DNA of 32,427 nucleotides from Salegentibacter agarivorans. GTDB lineage: Bacteria > Bacteroidota > Bacteroidia > Flavobacteriales > Flavobacteriaceae. Both the position numbers and the translations under genes were made by a program. Below, in pieces: positions 1 through 23,753 of the stretch. Location of the stretch: contig NZ_FOOH01000035.1 in assembly GCF_900113135.1 (NCBI RefSeq), positions 1 to 32,427 on the forward strand. Reading direction: 5' to 3'. Position 1 is the stretch's first letter. The number at the start of each line of letters is the position of its first letter. The notes below the pieces were generated by a model that saw only the letters and a program-made list of their open reading frames with translations, had not been told where the DNA came from and ran no database searches.

Positions 1-741
1 GGTGGTATCCTCGCAAGTCGGCTGTTGAGAAGCACTAGCTTCTGGTTGTGCAGGACTTCCTTCATTTTCTTCAATCACAATTGCTTCAGAAATCGCTTCG
101 CAATCTCCATTGCTGGCTTGTACAAAATAAGTTCCAGCAGTTAAATCAAGGAATTCCGCATTTTCAATAGAGCTATTTAATTCATTTTGATTTTCATCTA
201 AAAGAGTATAAGTAATTCCGTCATCAGTAATTACTGAAACCGTTCCTGTAATATCTTTGCAAGTTGGTTGCTGAGAAACAATGGTTTCTGGTTGCGCGGG
301 ATTTCCTTTGTTTTCTTCGATAATTATATCCTTAGAGGGCTGGGAGATACACTCATCTTCATTTTGAGCATATATCACGTAAGTTCCAGGAGAAAGCTCT
401 TCAAAAATGTTTGACTCCTGAAAAATTTCGCCATCCAGACTGTACATATATCCCTCAGTAGCATTTACCGTAATCTTTCCCGTTTCAAGATTACAGGTGG
501 GTTGAGTTACTACTATGGTTTCAGGAGTTTCTGCTATGGCTGGTGCAGGTAGAACTTCAAAACTATTGGTTGTAAAAACACATTCATTTAAAGCAACTGA
601 TAGGGTATAAACCCCTGGAGATAATGAACTAGTAGCATTCTTTAACTCAAGATTGCCTGTAGTTGAATTCAGTTCATATATATAATCTGTATTAAAATTG
701 GTGATTGTCAATACTCCATTTTCATTCTCACAGGTGGGATC
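1..741 (-). repeat. Tandem ~240-bp coding repeats (SprB-like modules)
   Basis: Inside the large secreted protein gene, a Pro-Thr-Cys opening recurs with its motif codons beginning at 741, 504, 270 and 24 on the minus strand, giving periods of 237, 234 and 246 bases (79, 78 and 82 residues). Each unit has the pattern PTC...TG.(I/V).V...Y......F..L..GTY.(V)....C. The link segments of the last units share NKGNPAQPE / NEGSPAQPE. The array continues out of the window, so the copy number is unknown. Confidence 0.8.
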
Positions 742-3201
742 TTTTTTAGTAAAAACAGGCTCCAGTTGTGTTTTAATATTTTCTAACGTAAGCGATTGTT
801 GAACATCTATATTTCCACATTCATAAGTAATTCTGAAGATTCGCTGATAAACCGCAGGAGATTGTTGTTGTAAAAAATCCTTATAGCTTATACTTTCAAT
901 CTCTTCAGTAAAAGAAATGCTTCCACCTAAATCTGTAAATACTTGCTGAGAAATAGTGGTAAATTCATTTGACAAGGCCGGAATGGAGTCGTCTGTAAAA
1001 TCGTTATCACAAGTTTGAATTGTTTGATTTTGTGGTGCGGTAATTTCCGGTTCTCCTATTACAGAAATCTTAATGGGAGCTCTGTTGGGACTTATACAGC
1101 TTGCCGATTCTCCTTCAGCAACGTAATAGATGAATTCACCAGACTGCGAAGTAGATGGAATAATTTGAATTTCGGGTGAAGTATCTTCTTCGCTGGTATA
1201 GTAATATAAATTGAAATCGGGATTACTGGGTACAGCTGTTAATGGATCGGCTTCATCGTTCAGACAATAAGTGATTGATTCAGTTTCAGGTACCGAAGCT
1301 ATAGTTGTAATTTCTATAGTAAAGGGTATTGCGCAATTCTCGGTTCCCGGGATTACCGCATAATATTCACCCGAATTATTTGGAATGGGATTATTGGTAG
1401 TATACTCGGTACTATTATTAGTTACCGGAGATTCGTTAAAGAATCTTGTTCCGTTAGGAAACCCAGAATTAATTTCAGCAATACCTATTGGTTCTTCTCT
1501 ATTACAATAAACAAATTTCCTGGCTTCATCTGAATTTTGGCAATTTTCAGCTCGAAAATTGGTAGCGTCTATGGCTACTTCAAAAGGAGTAGTAATAGGT
1601 TCACCCTGGCAGGTTCCTTCGGTTTCATATCCCTGAATAAGGTCTTTGTTTTGAAAAGTAGTACCGGTTATAGCTCCGCGACCACTAATATTTCCATTAA
1701 ATCTTATAAGATCAAAACCCGGGCAGATATTGGAAAGAATAGTACAATTCTTAGTTACCCCAAATTTTATAGTGAGATCGGCTAAAACATCATTGGTACT
1801 GTTGGCTAGCGGTAATTCATCTATTTCCCAAACTATAGATCCGGTTGCACCTAAAGTGGGATCAAAATATACTTCATTATTTTGCGGACTGGGAGAGAAA
1901 TAAAAATTGGTTGAAAGACCATTAGGAAGATAATCGGCGTTATATGGAACCGGAATTACCACTTTTACGTCTTCTACATTCTCGGTCCCTTTATTTTTTA
2001 ATTCAACCTTATAGCTTAATTCGTCACCGGGTACTGCATTATATGGTGGATTGCCCGCTATATTTCCATTTATTGCGCTTAAAGAGGAAATCCCTTCAAT
2101 TTCAGGAATGTAAGCGTCTACAGACATGGCAATTGAAAAAATGGAATAGGTGTCCTGGGTAGAACCATACCTAAAGGTGGTACTGGTTTGGTTATTATCT
2201 ATAACTGAATTCCCCGCATTTGGAATATTGAACATGCTAATGTCTATTCCGGTATTATTAGTATAATTTGGTGTTCTTGAAGAACCATTATTTTGAATAG
2301 AAGAATTGAAGAAATTATTAGTAGTGTTTTGTTCGTGAGAAAGACTTAACCAGGCATTATTACTATTCTTTTTTATCTGAAAATAATCTCCTGAAATTCC
2401 TACATCACCCTCGCCGGCCATTATTCCCATTTTCATATTTACGGGGCCAGATTGCGCGGTATTAAATCCCGAAACAGGAAGTTCATAATGTGCCACAACA
2501 TTCCCTTCAACATGAGCATAGCCATCAAAAACGGTAACATCCCTCCAATCCATTTGTGAATTTTCATAGATCACAATCATTCCCCATCCGCCGTAAAAAC
2601 CGGTAGTACCACCGTTACCTTCAGTTAGTTCCATATCGGCAACCCAATATTCCCCCGTACCATTATTTTTCACTAAATCGGTTACTTCTACATAAGCAGC
2701 ATACATATCTGATGGTCCAGGGAAAAGAATATCATTAACATTTGCGCTAATAGTTTGATAAGCGGAGTTATTTGGACCTTTTACTTTGATGTTTCTTTTA
2801 GCATTGGTCTTTCCAGAATTATTGGTACGCCCAGACCAATAAAGTCCGGCATAAATTATATTAGAGCACTCAGGATTTGCTCCATTTTCGTTTGAAAATT
2901 CAAGAACAGCTGCAGAAGAGTTTTTGGTGGAAGACTCGTTGTCTTCGTCTACAAATTGCATTAAATTGTTACTGTTATTTGTATTTTCCCCATAGGAAAA
3001 AAGGCTAAGATTGGTGTTGCCAATCATAGTGAAGTCTCCCTTAATATTATAGATCTTTTTTGATGTAGAATATTGGGAAGTTCGTTGCTTAAATTCCTTA
3101 TATACCTGTGCGTTAACAGCCGTATTGAAAAATAAAACGGTAAATGTTATCAACACGAATCTTATAGCGGTAAACTGATTTCTAAAGTAGTTTTTTTTCA
3201 T
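1..3201 (-). CDS. Giant secreted repeat protein, SprB/adhesin-like (partial, C-terminus outside window)
   Basis: An open frame of 1,067 codons runs from ATG at 3201 off the left edge, so the C-terminus is missing. Residues 1-31 form a signal peptide (basic start, hydrophobic core, cleavage near VNA|Q). Roughly the first 330 residues form an Asn/Gly/Thr-rich beta-type region. A DUF11-like repeat follows (around PGDELSYKVELKNKG), then several Cys-containing extracellular modules. From about residue 820 there are tandem ~80-residue repeats, each opening with P-T-C and carrying an L-x-x-G-x-Y motif. This architecture is typical of Bacteroidota surface proteins exported by the type IX system and often linked to gliding or adhesion. 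A C-terminal sorting domain is expected beyond the window but not seen. A small secreted protein is encoded 26 bases upstream on the same strand, probably co-transcribed. The class is fairly sure; the exact function and ligand are unknown. Confidence 0.85.
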   Translation of the reverse strand, partial: MKKNYFRNQFTAIRFVLITFTVLFFNTAVNAQVYKEFKQRTSQYSTSKKIYNIKGDFTMIGNTNLSLFSYGENTNNSNNLMQFVDEDNESSTKNSSAAVLEFSNENGANPECSNIIYAGLYWSGRTNNSGKTNAKRNIKVKGPNNSAYQTISANVNDILFPGPSDMYAAYVEVTDLVKNNGTGEYWVADMELTEGNGGTTGFYGGWGMIVIYENSQMDWRDVTVFDGYAHVEGNVVAHYELPVSGFNTAQSGPVNMKMGIMAGEGDVGISGDYFQIKKNSNNAWLSLSHEQNTTNNFFNSSIQNNGSSRTPNYTNNTGIDISMFNIPNAGNSVIDNNQTSTTFRYGSTQDTYSIFSIAMSVDAYIPEIEGISSLSAINGNIAGNPPYNAVPGDELSYKVELKNKGTENVEDVKVVIPVPYNADYLPNGLSTNFYFSPSPQNNEVYFDPTLGATGSIVWEIDELPLANSTNDVLADLTIKFGVTKNCTILSNICPGFDLIRFNGNISGRGAITGTTFQNKDLIQGYETEGTCQGEPITTPFEVAIDATNFRAENCQNSDEARKFVYCNREEPIGIAEINSGFPNGTRFFNESPVTNNSTEYTTNNPIPNNSGEYYAVIPGTENCAIPFTIEITTIASVPETESITYCLNDEADPLTAVPSNPDFNLYYYTSEEDTSPEIQIIPSTSQSGEFIYYVAEGESASCISPNRAPIKISVIGEPEITAPQNQTIQTCDNDFTDDSIPALSNEFTTISQQVFTDLGGSISFTEEIESISYKDFLQQQSPAVYQRIFRITYECGNIDVQQSLTLENIKTQLEPVFTKKDPTCENENGVLTITNFNTDYIYELNSTTGNLELKNATSSLSPGVYTLSVALNECVFTTNSFEVLPAPAIAETPETIVVTQPTCNLETGKITVNATEGYMYSLDGEIFQESNIFEELSPGTYVIYAQNEDECISQPSKDIIIEENKGNPAQPETIVSQQPTCKDITGTVSVITDDGITYTLLDENQNELNSSIENAEFLDLTAGTYFVQASNGDCEAISEAIVIEENEGSPAQPEASASQQPTCEDTT

Positions 3202-3227
3202 ATTCCTGAAATTTATGAGGGCAATAT

Positions 3228-3734
3228 TTATTGCTCTGTAGTAGTTCTGTAAAGAACTTTTACGTTAGAAGTATTTTTTAGCATATCCTGAATATTAGAT
3301 ACACTACATTCAAAATCACATTCAATTAAAACATATTTTAAAGCAGTACTTTTAATAGAACTTAGATCTAAACTTGTATATAAATTGTTTGAGGAATGCT
3401 TAATTAGAATTAAAACAACACTTTGCAATTCGGTTTTAATCTTGGAGATATTTGATAAATAATTAGAGGGTACAATTACCAGTTTTGGCGCTCCATCTCC
3501 CATTTTGGCGTGCTCATTTTCCTGAACAACTATTAGCGGATTTAATTCGAAAACTAGATTCTTAAGATTTTCTATTTCCCCAGAGTCAAAATTTTGTTGA
3601 TTTCGGGTTGGAGTAGATTGTTCTCCTATTAATTGGTCAAAATTGGTAATCGAGTAATTTTCCTGCGCATTGCCAATAAAAGTATTAGCAAACAATACAA
3701 GGATTAGGAGTTTAAAGAGTGAATTCATTTTCAT
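3228..3734 (-). CDS. Small secreted protein of unknown function
   Basis: The open frame extends upstream to a TTG at 3824, but ATG at 3734 is preferred because it gives a clean signal peptide: MKMN, a hydrophobic run of Leu/Ile/Val/Phe, then FIGNAQ with cleavage before Gln. The preferred protein is 168 residues. The mature part has no recognised domain. It is rich in Leu, Ile, Asn and Ser, and near the C-terminus has two Cys in the segment IECDFECSV. The stop lies 26 bases before the start of the giant secreted protein, so the two are probably one transcript and this product may be an accessory factor. That link is inference from position only. ATG at 3728 is a near-equivalent start. Confidence 0.65.
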   Translation of the reverse strand: MKMNSLFKLLILVLFANTFIGNAQENYSITNFDQLIGEQSTPTRNQQNFDSGEIENLKNLVFELNPLIVVQENEHAKMGDGAPKLVIVPSNYLSNISKIKTELQSVVLILIKHSSNNLYTSLDLSSIKSTALKYVLIECDFECSVSNIQDMLKNTSNVKVLYRTTTEQ

Positions 3735-3749
3735 AATTCTATAGTTCTG

Positions 3750-3833
3750 TTTCCCGTTTTTCAAGGGAAAAATTATTTTAAATTTTGGCATAAAAAGGTC
3801 ACTGATCCTTAGGGGAAGGATCAAACAAGGGTA
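3750..3833 (-). promoter_or_regulatory. Structured leader and possible promoter of the secreted-protein operon
   Basis: Two hairpins stand between the likely start at 3734 and a possible -7 element. One pairs TTTCCC (3750-3755) with GGGAAA (3765-3770). The other pairs GATCCTT (3804-3810) with AAGGATC (3816-3822). On the minus strand TACCCTTG (3826-3833) differs from the TAnnTTTG consensus at one position and would place the transcript start just before the outer hairpin. No TTG is seen at the expected -33 distance. The hairpins are direct observation; a regulatory role is inference. Confidence 0.35.
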
Positions 3834-4130
3834 GTTTTTTAAAATATTTAAGAATGTGAGATTTACATTTTGAAAACTTTTGGGGTAAGTTTTAATAGGA
3901 AAGTATGGGGGATGACCTATTTTAAATGTTAATCTTAGGATAAAATTACAGTGAATAATCTTTAAAAGACCAAATTGTCTTTTTTTTTAGATTAAAACCT
4001 ATTTATTTTCGGTGAATGGTAATATTGAAGTAAAAAATACGGGAAATCAGGTGGTTAATATTTCAAATAAACGTTTTTAGCCATTGTTTAAAAGAATTTA
4101 CAACTGCAGAAAAACCTTAGGTTTAAACAT
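3834..4130. other. Intergenic stretch without a supported gene
   Basis: About 300 AT-rich bases between the secreted-protein operon and the terminator of the upstream lipoprotein gene. No convincing reading frame, RNA gene or repeat was found on either strand. It includes a T9 run near 3980 and the 10-mer GGTGGTTAAT (about 4052), which recurs in the terminator arm at 4149 and is probably coincidence. Confidence 0.5.
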
Positions 4131-4155
4131 AAAAAAACCACCGAATAAGGTGGTT
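4131..4155 (-). terminator. Rho-independent terminator of the lipoprotein gene
   Basis: Read on the minus strand, AACCACC (4155-4149) and GGTGGTT (4142-4136) form a 7-bp stem with a 6-base loop, followed at once by a T run (4137-4131). It lies 28 bases after the lipoprotein stop at 4183. Confidence 0.8.
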
Positions 4156-4182
4156 AATTATATAAAAAGTTGAGGTAATTAA

Positions 4183-4665
4183 TTAGTTTTGTTCATACAT
4201 TAAAATTCTATGTTGTTCCCCTTCTATTAAAGGGTGTTCTTGCAGGTCTATTTCATAGATAAAACCTTCTTCTATAGTTGTAAAAATATCATATTCGTCC
4301 TGTACCGTATAACCTAATTCCTGCCTTGCATAATCTATCCAGGTTTGGTAAGTAGGGACATCCATTTTATTTTTATTAGAGATAACCGTTAAAAAGTCGT
4401 CTTGAATTTCTATAGTATAACGAGCACTTTTACCGTTTTTACTGGTTTTTTGATCTATCCAATTCCCTTCATCCATTTTTGAAATTTGAAGTTCACTTAA
4501 ATTTTGAGGGTTAAAATCTACAGCATAAACTACGTGATTTCTGGTATAGCTATCTGGATTTGTCATTCCAGCGGTACAGCTTCCTAAACTTATAGCAAGA
4601 ATAATAAGAGAAGCCTTAGTGAGTATTTGATTTTTAAATTGGAAAAAATTCTTATAAAAATTCAT
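4183..4665 (-). CDS. Putative lipoprotein, unknown function
   Basis: The frame can be opened at a TTG (4671), but ATG at 4665 is the better start and gives 160 residues. A lipoprotein signal is clear: Lys-containing N-region, hydrophobic LIILAISLGSC with lipobox LGSC and the modified Cys at residue 30, so the product should be anchored in a membrane by lipid. The mature part is acidic and Tyr-rich, without a recognised domain. It contains a stretch of beta type (RYTIEIQDDFLTVIS) and ends EGEQHRILMYEQN. It is a single-gene unit with its own terminator and is divergent from pdxH. Its role is unknown. Confidence 0.7.
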   Translation of the reverse strand: MNFYKNFFQFKNQILTKASLIILAISLGSCTAGMTNPDSYTRNHVVYAVDFNPQNLSELQISKMDEGNWIDQKTSKNGKSARYTIEIQDDFLTVISNKNKMDVPTYQTWIDYARQELGYTVQDEYDIFTTIEEGFIYEIDLQEHPLIEGEQHRILMYEQN

Positions 4666-4671
4666 TTGCAA

Positions 4672-4979
4672 TTTAATTTTAGTTCAATTTAATAATGGCG
4701 ATTAGTTAAATGTTTTGAACAAAATTAAGCGATATCACTCTTTATATGTATTATTATTAATGTTTTTAGTTATATCGCATTATTATTAGATAAAATGTAA
4801 TGGAATGCATTTCGTCGGTGTTTTTGGTCGAACTTATTTGCAGAACATAGAAATGAGTGCAGTTCGTCTATATTTAGTTCTTTTTTCTATTTGCATTTCA
4901 ACTATAAAAAGCAGAATCTTATCTCAAAATTTTTCCGGCTTCAGCCTAAAACTTGTAAATTGCAGCAAAGCAAAACACA
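4672..4979. other. Divergent intergenic region between lipoprotein gene and pdxH
   Basis: About 308 AT-rich bases that must hold the promoters of two divergent genes. An imperfectly placed inverted repeat, GCGATAT (4729-4735) with ATATCGC (4772-4778), spans a 36-base spacer with repeated ATTATTATTA tracts and could bind a regulator. Just before pdxH, GTAAATTGCAG (about 4955) resembles a degenerate -7 element. A 63-codon frame at 4805-4996 overlaps pdxH and has no coding character, so it is not annotated. Confidence 0.4.
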
Positions 4980-5627
4980 ATGCAAAAGAGCCTTGATGAT
5001 TACCGAAAAAGCTATGGAAAAAGCGAACTTTTAGAAGATAATGTCCCGTCTTTTCCACTGCCGCTTTTTACCGCCTGGTTTGAGGAGGCGGAAGAGCATC
5101 CTGAAATAGCAGAAGTAAATGCTATGAGTCTCGCCACCTGTGGAATAGAAGGATTTCCAAAAAATCGTATAGTACTTTTAAAGTCTTTTGGTGAAATGGG
5201 TTTCAGTTTTTATACTAATTATAATTCTGAAAAAGCCCGGGATATTGAAGAAAATCCAAGAGTTTGTTTATCCTTTTTCTGGCCACCATTAGAACGGCAG
5301 GTAATTATTAAAGGTGTTGCAATGAAAACTACCGAAGAAGAATCTGCAGCTTATTTTGGTTCCAGACCCCGGGGAAGTCAATTAGGCGCCTGGGCTTCTA
5401 ACCAAAGTAATGTTTTAAGCTCCCGCGAAGAACTGGAAGAACAGTTAAAAGAAATTGAAGAAAGATATCAAAATAAAGATGTAGATAAACCACCTCACTG
5501 GGGCGGTTATCTGGTAACCCCCAGAAGTTTTGAATTCTGGCAGGGTAGAAATAACCGTTTGCACGATAGGATAATCTATGAATTTATAGAACAGGATACC
5601 TGGGAACGTAACCGTTTAGCACCTTAA
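4980..5627 (+). CDS. pdxH: Pyridoxamine 5'-phosphate oxidase
   Basis: The product is a 215-residue FMN-dependent oxidase that converts pyridoxamine- or pyridoxine-phosphate to pyridoxal 5'-phosphate, the last step of vitamin B6 synthesis and salvage in the cytoplasm. Family motifs are all present and in order: an N-terminal helix region, RIVLLKSF, FYTNYNSEKA, LSFFWPPLERQVIIKG, SQLGAWASNQS, PPHWGGYLVTP, EFWQGRNNRLHDR, and the terminal ERNRLAP that ends this family. Length is normal. The ATG at 4980 begins the typical MQKSLDDYRKSYGK N-terminus. It leads a co-directional run pdxH-sixA-ppk1-ppx with an 10-base gap to the next gene. Confidence 0.97.
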   Translation: MQKSLDDYRKSYGKSELLEDNVPSFPLPLFTAWFEEAEEHPEIAEVNAMSLATCGIEGFPKNRIVLLKSFGEMGFSFYTNYNSEKARDIEENPRVCLSFFWPPLERQVIIKGVAMKTTEEESAAYFGSRPRGSQLGAWASNQSNVLSSREELEEQLKEIEERYQNKDVDKPPHWGGYLVTPRSFEFWQGRNNRLHDRIIYEFIEQDTWERNRLAP

Positions 5628-11808: not shown

Positions 11809-11812
11809 CACC

Positions 11813-12144
11813 AAGCAGGCCGCCTTATCGCCAACGAATTTATTCGATGGAGGAAATTCCGGACACCAAAGGGCGGCATAGTGGGTAACACCCATCGGTT
11901 CCGTTTCGGTTTTCCGAGGCGGGATCAGGACTAGTGCAACAGAAAGAATGTACAGGTAATGCTGTAGTGAAATCAGGTAAACTCTATGCGGTGCAATGCC
12001 ATGTAAACCGGTGTTTGCAAGCGGCTCGCTTGCTACCGGAGGGTAGGCAGCTAAAGGTTTTTGGCAACAAAAACCGGAGATAAATGATAAGGGGAACCCC
12101 GGTTAACGGGAGGAACAGAATCCGGATTACAGGCCTGCTTTTTT
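11813..12144 (+). ncRNA. rnpB: RNase P RNA (bacterial class A)
   Basis: About 330 bases make up the catalytic RNA of ribonuclease P, which trims tRNA 5' leaders. The ends pair as helix P1: AAGCAGGCC (11813-11821) with GGCCTGCTT (12132-12140). The universal core strand GGAGGAAATTCCGGACACC-like segment begins near 11849 and its P4 partner ACAGAATCCGG lies at 12115-12125, just before the 3' arm. GGGTAACACCC-type and other hairpins fill the middle. The P1 3' arm runs straight into T6 (12139-12144), so P1 likely doubles as the terminator hairpin. The T run overlaps the stop codon of the convergent gene. Confidence 0.96.
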
Positions 12145-12514
12145 ATAATAATGTCTTTGCCCACGCCCGGGCTTCGTCCATATGGGAAAAGATATCAAAA
12201 GGAACCGGAGAAAATTGTTTTTCAAAATTAGCCACCTGTAAGGCTTCATATCGCTGACTTACTATAGCTATTCCCAATAAATTTTTCACGTCTTTTAATT
12301 CAAAATAAATCGTTGGATTTACATTGTAATTATTCTTCCGGTCTGATACATAAACAAAATCTGCACCTTCATAAACCTCATTGCATATTTTTAGAATTTG
12401 TTCTACGTGTTCAATTTCAAAAACTACATCGTCTTTTACTTCAGAAATAACTATCCCTTCATAAAAATTTAAAATAATATCAACAAGCTCAATCCTTTTT
12501 ATCCTATCCGTCAT
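12143..12514 (-). CDS. SpoIIAA/STAS-like small protein
   Basis: The 123-residue product has an alternating beta/alpha pattern. It begins RIELVDIILNFYEGIVISEVKDDVVFEIEHVEQIL, has a central beta strand DFVYVSDRKNNYNVNP, then GIAIVSQRYEALQVANFEKQF and ends with the amphipathic HMDEARAWAKTLL. This shape and the C-terminal EARAWAKTLL-type helix resemble SpoIIAA-like (STAS-related) proteins that are common in Flavobacteriaceae. Their role is unknown; STAS domains act as signalling or ligand-binding switches. The stop codon overlaps the rnpB T run at 12143-12144. It lies 47 bases after rsmD on the same strand, with a small hairpin (AGCCC/GGGCT near 12531-12544) between. Confidence 0.6.
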   Translation of the reverse strand: MTDRIKRIELVDIILNFYEGIVISEVKDDVVFEIEHVEQILKICNEVYEGADFVYVSDRKNNYNVNPTIYFELKDVKNLLGIAIVSQRYEALQVANFEKQFSPVPFDIFSHMDEARAWAKTLL

Positions 12515-19602: not shown

Positions 19603-20448
19603 ATGAATAAACTACTTTTATTTTTATGTACAGCAGGGCTTATGAGTGCTGCCCAGGCACAGGTACAGGCGCCTCAACCTAGCCCATTTACTAAAGTTGA
19701 ACAAAAAGTTGGACTTACCGATGTTACGCTCGAATATTCCCGCCCCGGAATGAGAGATCGCGAGATTTTTGGCGATCTGGTACCTTATGGGGAAGTATGG
19801 CGTACCGGAGCTAACGAAAATACCAAAATCACTTTTAGTGACGATGTTACTGTTCAGGGTAAAGAATTAAAAGCGGGAACTTATGCTATTTACACAATTC
19901 CGAAGGAAAAAGAATGAGAAGTAATGTTCTATAACGATGCTTCAAACTGGGGAAATCCTGCTGAATGGAGGGAGGAGAAAGTAGCCTTAAAAGCAACTGC
20001 CGAAGTGATGGAACTTCCTTTTGAAATGGAAACTTTTATCATTATGATAGATGAGCTGAAGAATGATTCTGCTGCTCTTAATATTATTTGGGAAAATACC
20101 GTAGCAAGCTTAAGATTTGAAGTGCCTACTGAAGAAAAAGCAATGGCCAGTATTGAAAAAACGATGAATGGCCCAGGGGCAGGAGATTATTTTGCGGCCG
20201 CAACTTATTATCACGATGCCAAAAAAGATTTGGAACAGGCTTACGAATGGGTAAATAAATCCCTTGAAATGGGTAACCCAAATGCCTTTTGGATCTTAAG
20301 AAGAAAATCGCTTATCGCAGCCGATCTTGGTAAAAAAGAAGAAGCAATTGCAGCTGCCAAAAAATCTTTAGCCGAAGCTGAAAAAGCCGGAAACCAGGAT
20401 TACGTAAAAATGAACAAAGATTCTCTAAAAGAATGGGGAGTTATGTAG
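19603..20448 (+). pseudogene. DUF2911 family secreted protein, interrupted by one in-frame TGA
   Basis: Two frames, 19603-19917 and 19924-20448, are in the same phase and together make one 281-codon gene. The first part has a signal peptide (MNKLLLFLCTAGLMSAAQAQ) and the DUF2911 signatures LEYSRPGMRDREIFGDLVPYGEVWRTGANENTKI and LKAGTYAIYTIPKEKE. The stop at codon 105 (TGA, 19915-19917) falls where relatives have a Trp (E-W before a beta strand), so a TGG-to-TGA change explains it. The downstream part continues the domain without further damage and ends in TPR-like helices (DLEQAYEWVNKSLEMGNPNAFWILRRKSLIAADLGKKEEAIAAAKKSL). This may be a recent pseudogene, a stop read through at low level, or a sequencing error. 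Confidence 0.9.
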
Positions 20449-20627: not shown

Positions 20628-22304
20628 CTAAGCCTCACAACTAGCACAATTCACCATATTAGCTATAAATTCTTTAGAAACACTTTGGCTTCTTTGATAG
20701 TAAAGGGTTTTAACTCCCAGTTGCCAGGCTTCTATCATTAACTTATTTACTTCCCGAACCGGAAGATCTGATGGAATATTTAAATTTAAACTTTGCGCCT
20801 GGTCTATATATTTTTGCCTAACTGAAGCCTGTTGTATAATCTCTAGCTGACTTATCTCTTTAAAGGTTTTAAAGATCATTCGCTCTTCATCACTCAATTC
20901 TTTTAAATGCTGTACGCTTCCGTGGTTTAGCATGATGCTTCGCCAGGTTTCTTCGGTATCTAATCCTTTTTCCTGGAGCAATTCCTTTAAATATTTATTC
21001 TTCCGCATAAAATTCCCTTTTGCCAATCCGGCTTTATAGTAATTACTGCTAAAAGGTTCAATTCCCGGTGATGCCTGTCCCAAAATTGCAGAAGAAGAGG
21101 TAGTAGGCGCAACGGCCATTAAAGTAGTATTTCTTAATCCGTAGCCTTTTAAAACCTCGGGTTCGCCATAAATATTAGCTAATTCCTTACTTGCTTTTGT
21201 AGCTTTCTCATTAATTTCTTTAAAAATGGAATTCGTTAAGCCTTTTGCTTTTAAGCCTTCAAAAGGAATTCTATTTTTCTGAAGATAAGAATGCCAACCC
21301 ATAACGCCCAATCCCAGTGCCCTATGTCTTTTTGCAAATTTATTAGCAGGAGTGAGGTAATAATTATCCTCGGTTTTGGCGATAAATTCCTGTAAAACAG
21401 CATCAAGAAAATAGATAGCCAGTTTTACGGCTTCAGTATCTTTCCATTCGTCATACAGCTCCAAATTCATAGAAGAGAGACAGCAAATAAAGGACTCTTC
21501 CTCGGTTGAGGGCAGTGCGATTTCTGAACACAAATTACTGGAATTTATAACGTAGTTTTTATCCTTATAAACTTGTGGCTTAAATCGGTTAATATTGTCT
21601 TTAAAGAAAATATATGGCAAACCTTTTTGCTGCCTGCTTTCTAACACTTTAGCCCAGATTTCTCGTTTTTCCCGGTCTCCATCTATCATTTCCTGCATCC
21701 AGTAATCGGGCACACTTACGCCATAAAATAAATTCTGAATAGGATTTCCTATATTTTTTATCTCTAGAAACTCCTTAATATCGGGGTGGTCAATATCCAG
21801 GTAAGCAGCAAAAGCTCCGCGGCGTACTCCACCTTGTGAAATAGTATCCATAGCGGTATCAAAAAGCTTCATAAAACTCGTAGCTCCGCTGCTTTTGCCA
21901 TTATCGGTAACTGCACTCCCACGACCTCTTAGCTCCCCAAAATAGCCTGAAGTTCCGCCACCAATCTTGGTTTGCATAATTACCTCGCCCAGTTTGTGGG
22001 TAATTCCTTCAATATTATCGGGTACATAAACATTAAAACAGGAAATAGGTAATCCGCGTTCGGTACCCATATTGGCCCAAATTGGCGAACTTAAACTCAT
22101 CCAGCCACGCTCTATCATTTCTATAAAAGCTTCTGCCAGTTCTGGTTTGTAGAGCCTTTTTGCAGCTGCATTTGCAACTCTTTCTATAGCAGATTTTGTG
22201 GTTTCTCCTTTTAATAAGTAGCCGCGGTTAAGTATTTGCTGGCTTTCTTCATTAAGCCACCATAGGCGTTCCTGTTGCGTTTCTTTATTTATTGTTTCGG
22301 GCAT
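20628..22304 (-). CDS. nrdA: Class I ribonucleotide reductase, alpha subunit (compact, no ATP-cone)
   Basis: The 558-residue catalytic subunit reduces ribonucleoside diphosphates to deoxy forms. Active-site residues are in place: Cys89 (ISCFNVYV) and Cys274/275 region (FICCLSSMN) for the redox pair, and N257-L-C259-S-E261 (NLCSEIALPSTEE) for radical chemistry. Tyr535-Tyr536 (TLYYQRSQS) serve radical transfer, and C553-A-S-C556 at the C-terminus passes electrons. It starts directly in the catalytic fold and lacks the N-terminal ATP-cone, so it cannot show the usual dATP overall switch. This minimal form fits the class Id enzymes described from Flavobacterium johnsoniae. It follows nrdB by 41 bases on one transcript under the cobalamin riboswitch. 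Confidence 0.96.
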   Translation of the reverse strand: MPETINKETQQERLWWLNEESQQILNRGYLLKGETTKSAIERVANAAAKRLYKPELAEAFIEMIERGWMSLSSPIWANMGTERGLPISCFNVYVPDNIEGITHKLGEVIMQTKIGGGTSGYFGELRGRGSAVTDNGKSSGATSFMKLFDTAMDTISQGGVRRGAFAAYLDIDHPDIKEFLEIKNIGNPIQNLFYGVSVPDYWMQEMIDGDREKREIWAKVLESRQQKGLPYIFFKDNINRFKPQVYKDKNYVINSSNLCSEIALPSTEEESFICCLSSMNLELYDEWKDTEAVKLAIYFLDAVLQEFIAKTEDNYYLTPANKFAKRHRALGLGVMGWHSYLQKNRIPFEGLKAKGLTNSIFKEINEKATKASKELANIYGEPEVLKGYGLRNTTLMAVAPTTSSSAILGQASPGIEPFSSNYYKAGLAKGNFMRKNKYLKELLQEKGLDTEETWRSIMLNHGSVQHLKELSDEERMIFKTFKEISQLEIIQQASVRQKYIDQAQSLNLNIPSDLPVREVNKLMIEAWQLGVKTLYYQRSQSVSKEFIANMVNCASCEA

Positions 22305-22345: not shown

Positions 22346-23320
22346 TTAAAAAAGATCATCGGCGGTGATGCTCTTATCGTGTTTGGTATAATCTACCGGG
22401 CGCTTGGCAAAAAAGTCGTCTAAACTATTGGCGAAAACTTCTTCTTCAAACCATAACATAGCTTTGTAATCATACTCTGAAACAAAGTAGATTTTTTCCA
22501 AACCAATTTTTTCAAGGCTATCGTCTACCCGATATTTCATAAAATTCAGAAGGTCTTCTTTTTTGCATTGTTCCAAAGCGCCATCAGCAAAAATCCAGTC
22601 CAGGATTTCAGATTCTACTTCCATAGAGTGAGCAATGATTTCCCTAATTTGAGTTTTGGTTTCCTCGTTGAAGAATTCTGGAAATTCATTTTTGATCTGG
22701 TTTACAATATAAATCCCGGCGTTAGCATGAATTTGTTCGTCTACCGATGTCCAGGCAATAATATTACTCACATTTTTCATCACGCCTTTAAAGCGACTAA
22801 ACGAAAGAATAATAGCAAATTGACTAAAGAGGGATACGTTTTCAATTAAAATAGAGAATAAAATAAGGGAAAACACGTATTTCTTTTCATCTGAAGATTT
22901 TGTATTTGCTAAAGCTTCAGAAAGATAAGCTACCCTTTTTTTGATAACAGGAGTTTCTATCAATTTCTCGAACTCGTTGTTATAACCTAAAACTTCGAGC
23001 AAACGGGAGTAAGCTTCAGAATGTCTAAATTCACATTCAGCAAAAGTACTTCCCAGGCCGTTAAATTCCGGTTTTGGGAGGTGCTCATATAAATCGCCCC
23101 AAAAGGATTTAACGGCTACTTCAATTTGTGCGATGGCAAGCAAACTCTTTTTAATTACCTGTTTTTCATTTTCACTAAGATGGGAATGAAAATCCTGTAC
23201 ATCGGCGGTGAAGTCTACTTCAGAATGTACCCAGAAAGAACGATTTATTGCTTCGGTAAACTGAAGAATTTCGGGATAATCGAAAGGTTTGTAATTTACC
23301 CGTTTTTCAAAAATACTCAT
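22346..23320 (-). CDS. nrdB: Class I ribonucleotide reductase, beta (radical) subunit
   Basis: The 324-residue subunit carries the dimetal site that generates the radical used by NrdA. The ligand set is visible as Glu67 (AIAQIEVAVKSFW), E97-x-x-H100 (AECEFRHSEAY), Glu160 (ILIENVSLF) and E195-x-x-H198 (VDEQIHANAG). Tyr104 stands at the E+7 place of the classic radical tyrosine. The first ligand is Glu rather than the Asp of class Ia. Together with the alpha subunit lacking an ATP-cone, this fits the class Id (dimanganese) type; the metal cannot be proven from sequence. No ATP-cone is fused at its N-terminus either. It is the first gene after the riboswitch. Confidence 0.96.
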   Translation of the reverse strand: MSIFEKRVNYKPFDYPEILQFTEAINRSFWVHSEVDFTADVQDFHSHLSENEKQVIKKSLLAIAQIEVAVKSFWGDLYEHLPKPEFNGLGSTFAECEFRHSEAYSRLLEVLGYNNEFEKLIETPVIKKRVAYLSEALANTKSSDEKKYVFSLILFSILIENVSLFSQFAIILSFSRFKGVMKNVSNIIAWTSVDEQIHANAGIYIVNQIKNEFPEFFNEETKTQIREIIAHSMEVESEILDWIFADGALEQCKKEDLLNFMKYRVDDSLEKIGLEKIYFVSEYDYKAMLWFEEEVFANSLDDFFAKRPVDYTKHDKSITADDLF

Positions 23321-23399
23321 ATCACTTTTGTTTTAGTTTTAAAATCAAAAGCATAAAAGCAAATAGGTGTCTTTGGAAAAGAGAAGAGCGGGAAGGCCG

Positions 23400-23407
23400 C
23401 AAATATA
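23400..23407 (-). promoter_or_regulatory. Possible internal promoter between riboswitch and nrdB
   Basis: The minus strand reads TATATTTG followed by CGGCC, a perfect TAnnTTTG match about 80 bases before the nrdB start and downstream of the aptamer. No TTG lies at the -33 distance. It could give B12-independent nrd transcription, or may be chance in the expression platform. Confidence 0.35.
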
Positions 23408-23422
23408 TTATCCTGGACATTT

Positions 23423-23563
23423 ACTTTATATGCGAAAGCAAAAGTCAGCCCGGTTGGGAAGGTAATCTGGCTTGTAGAAAAGTCTACTTTACAGTTGCGC
23501 AACAGCTCATGATTCTCACATGATTCCCCTTGTTTATTACAAAATGTAATACCCGCCGGTATG
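23423..23563 (-). promoter_or_regulatory. Cobalamin (B12) riboswitch upstream of nrdB-nrdA
   Basis: Read on the minus strand, the conserved aptamer core is present: GGGGAATC, GTGAGAATC, then GAGCTGTTGCGCAACTGTAA (core spans about 23531-23487). The B12-box equivalent AAGCCAGATTACC lies at 23473-23461. A closing stem pairs CCGG-C-GGG (from 23559) with CCC-AA-CCGG (to 23450). A further hairpin, ACTTT/AAAGT around 23423-23446, follows as expected for the pseudoknot partner arm. The leader to nrdB continues about 100 bases and includes GCGG-CCTTC-CCGC followed by a T-rich stretch, a possible off-switch. Adenosyl- or other cobalamin should repress nrdBA; ligand type and mechanism are inference. Confidence 0.9.
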
Positions 23564-23569
23564 ATTTTA

Positions 23570-23577
23570 CAAAAGTA
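23570..23577 (-). promoter_or_regulatory. Promoter -7 element for the riboswitch-nrdBA transcript
   Basis: The minus strand reads TACTTTTG, a TAnnTTTG match, ending about 11 bases before the aptamer closing stem begins. Transcription would start at about 23563. The -33 position lacks TTG. Confidence 0.5.
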
Positions 23578-23753
23578 AAGTTATAAGGAATTTGCGGTGG
23601 TTTTATAAAAACAGCTTTGAGTTATAAACATAGTTTTTCACAAGTTAAAGTTTCGGTAAAAAGAAGAGATCAAAGAAAATAGTGAGGTTGCAGGCATAGT
23701 CTTTGCCTAGTAAAGGATGCAGTATTTGCTAATCAATCGAAAAAAATGTAAAA

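Follow-up and report, generated by a model that had tools for sequence, protein, structure and literature searches.

The window analysed here, a 32,427-nt stretch of Salegentibacter agarivorans DNA, contains a cobalamin riboswitch followed by the genes of a class I ribonucleotide reductase (RNR). The Rfam cobalamin riboswitch model RF00174 matches positions 23438–23572 of the minus strand over its full length (model positions 1–189) with 35.6 bits (E 1.1e-5; gathering cut-off 31.5 bits), and the match lies 117 nt upstream of nrdB, whose start codon is at 23320. The genes and RNA elements, including those proposed to make up the expression platform (segments B, C and D), are arranged as follows; R1 is a covariance model that we built from 12 nrdB leaders, the window included.

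20628..22304, minus strand: nrdA (nrdE-prime), class I large subunit, 558 aa; TIGR02510 734.7 bits (cut-off 602), PRK09102 770.4 (cut-off 620)
22346..23320, minus strand: nrdB, class I small (R2) subunit, 324 aa; PF00268 235.8 bits
23318..23351, minus strand: segment D, including the start codon; hairpin CUUUUG (23346–23351) : CAAAAG (23325–23330) beside the AUG, predicted by folding
23350..23378, minus strand: segment C, proposed partner of B, with core TATTTGCTTTTATGC at 23351–23365; duplex −16.4 kcal/mol, shuffle p 0.023
23411..23434, minus strand: segment B, 3′ part of L13 and P13, proposed anti-sequestering strand; B:C complementarity
23416..23446, minus strand: P13 hairpin GACUUUUGCUUUCGCAUAUAAAGUAAAUGUC; L13 motif UUUCGC at 23432–23437
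23416..23535, minus strand: compact core P3-P5-P6-P7 plus P13 hairpin; model R1, pairing and covariation beyond shuffles
23438..23572, minus strand: cobalamin riboswitch aptamer; RF00174 match described above
23461..23473, minus strand: B12 box (J6/3), AAGCCAGATTACC; commonest elsewhere, CAGGAGACC
23474..23487, minus strand: P7, short hairpin GUAGA-CUUU-UCUAC, the sole P6 accessory element (no P8–P12); RF00174 and subtype alignments
23512..23518, minus strand: L5 (UGAGAAU), candidate kissing-loop partner of L13; complementary, nearly invariant
23535..23551, minus strand: P2 hairpin UAUUAC-loop-GUAAUA; RF00174 alignment
23570..23577, minus strand: putative promoter element TACTTTTG; fits TAnnTTTG

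The Rfam search, which the original prediction had named as its check, confirms a genuine cobalamin riboswitch before class I ribonucleotide reductase genes. The aptamer motifs quoted there are all present, and the span given, 23423..23577, covers the aptamer, though the unit described here continues as far as the start codon of nrdB. Allowing up to two mismatches, a scan of the window gives a single match to the core CTGTTGCGCAACTGTAA, and none of 100 shuffles contains one. Hairpins at the P2 position were also seen by eye in several other leaders. At the upstream end, TACTTTTG fits TAnnTTTG, the consensus of the −7 promoter element of Bacteroidota, and is a putative element of this kind; at the downstream end no Shine–Dalgarno site was seen by eye in the nrdB start region (segment D). 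A kinship with the env8 class IIa aptamer by way of the stretch CAGAUUAC was considered and dropped, since in env8 the similar stretch lies after P5.

The assignment of the downstream genes to class I, also part of the original prediction, is given by PF00268 for the R2 chain and by TIGR02510 and PRK09102 for the large chain; the best NCBIfam beta-subunit matches of NrdB fall under all listed cut-offs (158.5 of 237). NrdB orthologues at 96–98% identity are present in eight Salegentibacter species. In a further genome of the genus (G031), no NrdB of the window type was found at E ≤ 1e-60, and this organism may depend on another reductase. The class II gene nrdJ, which had been expected in the genome, is there (C20; 578 bits, cut-off 400), as is a corrinoid adenosyltransferase (PF01923, 218 bits). 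The expectation of B12 uptake is borne out in part: a second cobalamin riboswitch (RF00174, 81.6 bits) lies upstream of a TonB receptor gene, and the receptor itself scores 116 bits with TIGR01779 (cut-off 600), making it B12-receptor-like only. A third RF00174 match in the genome (C22, 16.6 bits) falls inside a CusA-like efflux ORF and was taken as chance. Elsewhere in the window, a bacterial class A RNase P RNA is located at 11812–12145 of the plus strand (192.5 bits), and a DUF2911 domain is split over adjacent plus-strand ORFs at 19603–19917 and 19924–20448 (profile positions 1–78, then 82–144), reflecting either a broken gene or a sequencing error.

From their alignment, the nrdB-linked switches are described as a compact cobalamin riboswitch subtype with strong covariation. 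The alignment holds 24 compact switches, 23 of them before NrdB of the window type and one (L065) before a different R2 gene; 12 of the 24 were used to build R1. In this alignment, which was fitted to R1 in a way that favours pairing and covariation figures, standard pairs make up 96.1% of base-pair cells, and both sides have changed in 18 of 27 pairs, with covariation in both aptamer and P13. Neither value was reached in any of 500 shuffles, and sliding the pairing partners lowers pairing to 34–48%. The junction core P3–P6 is conserved with compensatory changes, P6 itself hardly varying. The stretch from P6 to the B12 box spans 14–29 nt in the 24 rows (16 in the window), and therefore the P8–P12 extension of P6 that characterizes class I is absent from the switch in the window and from the subtype as a whole. 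Most rows allow L5 to pair with L13 (UGARA with UUUCG), and the near invariance of these pairs means that covariation cannot support the contact; by their complementarity the two loops are candidate kissing-loop partners.

The B12 box had been described as diverged, and this is real: the window reads CAGATTACC where GGAGACC is usual. The divergence, which might alter ligand selectivity, is not peculiar to this locus and is common to the nrdB-linked compact subtype, with GGAGACC in none of the 24 switches. At 29 other cobalamin riboswitch loci, the box was found by pattern in 27, of which 23 read CAGGAGACC, the pattern having misplaced the box in at least one (L050, printed sequence GGAGACT). 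Class IIb switches are distinguished by GGAA in J3/4 and UCU in J6/3 (PMC11260477). Inspection by eye places GGAA in J3/4 of the window's switch (GGGGAATC) and finds GATTA, not UCU, in J6/3; the switch thus resembles class IIb in its J3/4 and in the absence of P8–P12, and departs from it in J6/3.

The compact switch is closely tied to nrdB. In a search of 395 genomes of the class, the eight best R1 matches (84–147 bits, the window among them) all lie directly upstream of nrdB. NrdB at ≥60% identity occurs in 12 of these genomes; eight have the switch, and all eight have nrdJ, which is present in one of the four in which no switch was found (nrdJ of G150 and G330 was counted by E-values of 2.6e-144 and 1.2e-143). 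Of 22 genomes taken from the search for NrdB orthologues, 12 carry the switch, all of them together with nrdJ, and nrdJ is present in 4 of the 10 others. RF00174 scores above gathering were also obtained in seven of eight Salegentibacter relatives, in L021 and in L032, whose switch is full-size (93 bits with RF00174, 22 bits with R1); in L013, L023 and L024 the element is present with an RF00174 score under gathering. At the level of the order, there are 92 further genomes with NrdB at ≥58% identity, of which 78 were tested, the other 14 all belonging to one genus (g152) of family f2. Five of the 78 have the switch, three of them with nrdJ, and nrdJ is found in 20 of the 73 in which no switch was found.

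Taken together, nrdJ is present in 22 of 24 genomes with a switch before nrdB versus 24 of 86 nrdB genomes without a switch found, a group that may still include genomes with weak switches, as these can be lost under the stricter filters used in searches of more than 40 genomes. Known duplicates, recognized by identical nrdJ coordinates, are removed from these totals (G911, the same as L018, and G906, the same as L026). The counts indicate that the switch goes with nrdJ, yet nrdJ does not require the switch; we attach no p-value to the co-occurrence because the genomes are related. The two switch-bearing genomes in which no nrdJ was found, G833 (76% complete) and G841 (53% complete), share a genus with a switch genome that has it.

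A compact switch also occurs in genome G513 of family f12, where it precedes another type of class I R2 gene by 89 nt (L065:438–1412, minus strand; PF00268 395 bits, 22% identity to the window NrdB); its box, CAGATTACC, is identical to the one in the window. A tree of 68 NrdB proteins does not recover a single origin of the switch: the 26 switch-bearing rows need seven gains or losses, at least three of them forced by well-supported branches; bootstrap values for this tree are not settled, L065 sits on a very long branch and L104 was omitted as broken. A search of a viral collection with a 17-base core pattern returned four contigs, one of which (L127) matches R1 with 99.1 bits. Over positions 1–5502 this contig has the switch, nrdB (73%) and nrdA (90%) beside a tyrosine integrase-like gene and a UmuC-like fragment, both identified by eye; it may represent a mobile cassette, or be bacterial DNA filed among viral contigs.

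Downstream of the aptamer, the 3′ strand of P13 (segment B) has two pairing options: it can fold back to form P13, or it can pair with segment C, which otherwise pairs over the start region in segment D. Segment C ends 25–30 nt before the ATG in 17 of the 24 leaders; it ends 35 and 40 nt before it in L089 and L074, and the longest unbroken B:C helix of L070 ends at 26 nt. Compared with dinucleotide shuffles, the B:C duplex reaches p < 0.05 in 14 of the 24 leaders and, when each lineage is represented by one leader, in 7 of 12 lineages (Fisher over the 12, p = 1.1e-7), with 0.023 in the window and 0.003 in L021, L018 and L073. Pairing no better than in shuffles was found in L105, L107 and L116 (p 0.71, 0.11 and 0.69) and in L032 (0.51), the leaders of family f87 and L032 being without the B:C pattern; values in L071 (0.23) and in L079, L070, L080, L016 and L020 (0.11–0.06) are also not below 0.05. 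Compensatory changes between B and C are seen at several positions, for example GCAUAAGG:CCUUAUGC versus GCACAAGG:CCUUGUGC between two congeneric genomes, and an A-U pair replaced by C-G in L070. When partners are swapped, a leader's own duplex outperforms the average of the other lineages in 13 of 14 cases, and in only 5 of the 14 does it outperform all of them. The L127 leader, which lies outside the set used to build R1, has the same layout (p 0.013, C ending 27 nt before the ATG).

Folding connects these pairings to the start region. In the window, the unpaired fraction of positions −15 to +6 is 0.13 with B locked away and 0.50 with B:C forced. Forcing B:C makes the start region more accessible in 20 of 24 leaders, three of these gaining 0.07 or less, and has no such effect in L020, L105, L107 and L032; for the AUG considered by itself, 14 leaders show opening and 7 show closing. 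The mean gain in 14 leaders is 0.23, compared with 0.04 in shuffles, and was reached by none of 60 replicates; taken singly, it has p < 0.05 in 7 of the 14. In L070 the AUG itself lies within the C:D stem. By our own reading, unconstrained folds of 12 leaders contain P13 in seven and B:C in five, and either fold may prevail. The B:C platform thus has support from shuffles, compensatory changes and one further contig, with single leaders giving mixed results.

These observations suggest a mechanism that we consider likely: a cobalamin riboswitch of the compact nrdB-linked subtype would shut off the B12-independent class I reductase by occluding its start region through segments B, C and D. Without ligand, P13 would open and its 3′ strand (B) would pair with C, leaving the A-rich region before the AUG (D) single-stranded and nrdB translated. 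With ligand, the L5–L13 kissing loop would keep P13 closed, and the freed segment C would cover D and the start region by pairing and so block initiation. At plentiful cobalamin cofactor, class I NrdBA would accordingly be off and class II NrdJ would take over. Bacteroidetes lack Shine–Dalgarno signals, and their initiation is tuned partly by structure near the start codon (PMC6847099; PMC9976891); for this reason a translational switch in this phylum must cover the start region. The position of the C:D hairpin over that region makes repression by cobalamin the best-supported model, and we infer from it a translational level of control.

The same riboswitch could instead act by premature transcription termination, intrinsic or Rho-dependent. 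Precedents exist in the metE switch of Priestia megaterium, where an antiterminator arises from alternative pairing of the 3′ side of P13 (PMC10653944), and in RNA-seq data from 15 Gram-negative taxa, which indicate transcriptional action of cobalamin switches in 10 of them (PMC12121620). At this locus, however, no intrinsic terminator was found in 23280–23700 (0.3 expected in shuffles), and the second hairpin sits at the AUG without a U-run, the AUG of L070 being inside its stem, so that we regard termination as rather unlikely. Activation of nrdB in the presence of B12 is very unlikely. One activating corrinoid riboswitch has been reported (PMC10653944), but repression is what one would expect for a B12-independent enzyme that coexists with NrdJ, and the closed P13 is predicted to favour start-site occlusion.

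Alternative views of the aptamer concern its ligand and its integrity. Owing to the altered J6/3 and the missing P6 extension, it might sense a form other than adenosylcobalamin (methyl- or hydroxo-) or be promiscuous. The lack of GGAGACC and of P8–P12 throughout the subtype fits this idea, as does the AdoCbl-II model RF01689, which scores 31.2 bits on the nrdB element and has no match at E ≤ 10 on the receptor-linked riboswitch; class IIa switches prefer methyl or hydroxo forms (PMC11260477). That RF01689 score is nevertheless below the gathering cut-off of 36.5, the GGAA in J3/4 is as in class IIb, said to bind adenosylcobalamin (PMC11260477), and NrdJ needs adenosylcobalamin, which is therefore the sensible signal. 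We consider a different or broader ligand possible though somewhat unlikely. A decayed riboswitch without function would account for the low Rfam score and the diverged B12 box; given the strong compensatory evolution across families and the recurrent linkage to nrdB, it is extremely unlikely. Beyond start-region occlusion by cobalamin, which remains our preferred mechanism, we tentatively propose a broader picture that is possible but on balance doubtful. In it, the nrdB-linked switches would constitute a separate compact subclass that travels with nrdBA among Bacteroidota, the altered J6/3 would read another cobalamin form than the receptor-linked switch of the same cell, and the four-segment platform would cover the start codon to gate initiation without a Shine–Dalgarno sequence.

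Several of these features have counterparts in known systems: B12 riboswitches before B12-independent RNRs, among them the class III enzyme NrdDG, were already described, as were switching by the P13 3′ strand and the masking logic. In Streptomyces coelicolor, whose genome likewise contains class II nrdJ, an adenosylcobalamin riboswitch precedes the class Ia operon nrdABS (Borovok 2006, as cited in PMC4991794). That system belongs to another phylum and is reported to act transcriptionally, and the gene order here is nrdB–nrdA; the likeness is one of gene context. A B12-element before nrdDG in delta-proteobacteria with nrdJ is likewise predicted to repress a B12-independent RNR where NrdJ exists, the enzyme there being NrdDG and here class I (PMC545781). 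The Mycobacterium tuberculosis metE switch has a translational OFF model in which the anti-sequestering segment overlaps L13 and the sequestering segment lies ~60 nt away, and ppe2 resembles the present aptamer in lacking P8–P12 and UCU in J6/3 and in having GGAA in J3/4; unlike here, the masked start region has a Shine–Dalgarno motif and uORFs are involved (PMC11260477). In the P. megaterium metE corrinoid switch, the P13 3′ side also pairs alternatively with a downstream segment and a kissing loop stabilizes P13, but the downstream hairpin is a transcription terminator, whereas here it covers the start region (PMC10653944).

Against this background, the compact RNA and the start-hiding four-segment platform look like a new variant. 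A literature search with partial coverage returned no recognized report of a cobalamin switch before a class I RNR in Bacteroidota, which argues only weakly that none exists. Cobamide synthesis is predicted for only 0.6% of Bacteroidetes, and 96% have cobamide-dependent enzymes (PMC6461909). If the proposed mechanism is correct, some Bacteroidetes would let scavenged B12 decide which of two ribonucleotide reductases supplies their DNA precursors, and the platform would offer a testable answer to how riboswitches act in a phylum whose ribosomes ignore Shine–Dalgarno sites. The same isozyme logic is seen in genome G388 (L060:1–1436, minus strand), where a cobalamin switch precedes the gene for a cobalamin-independent methionine synthase (PF08267).
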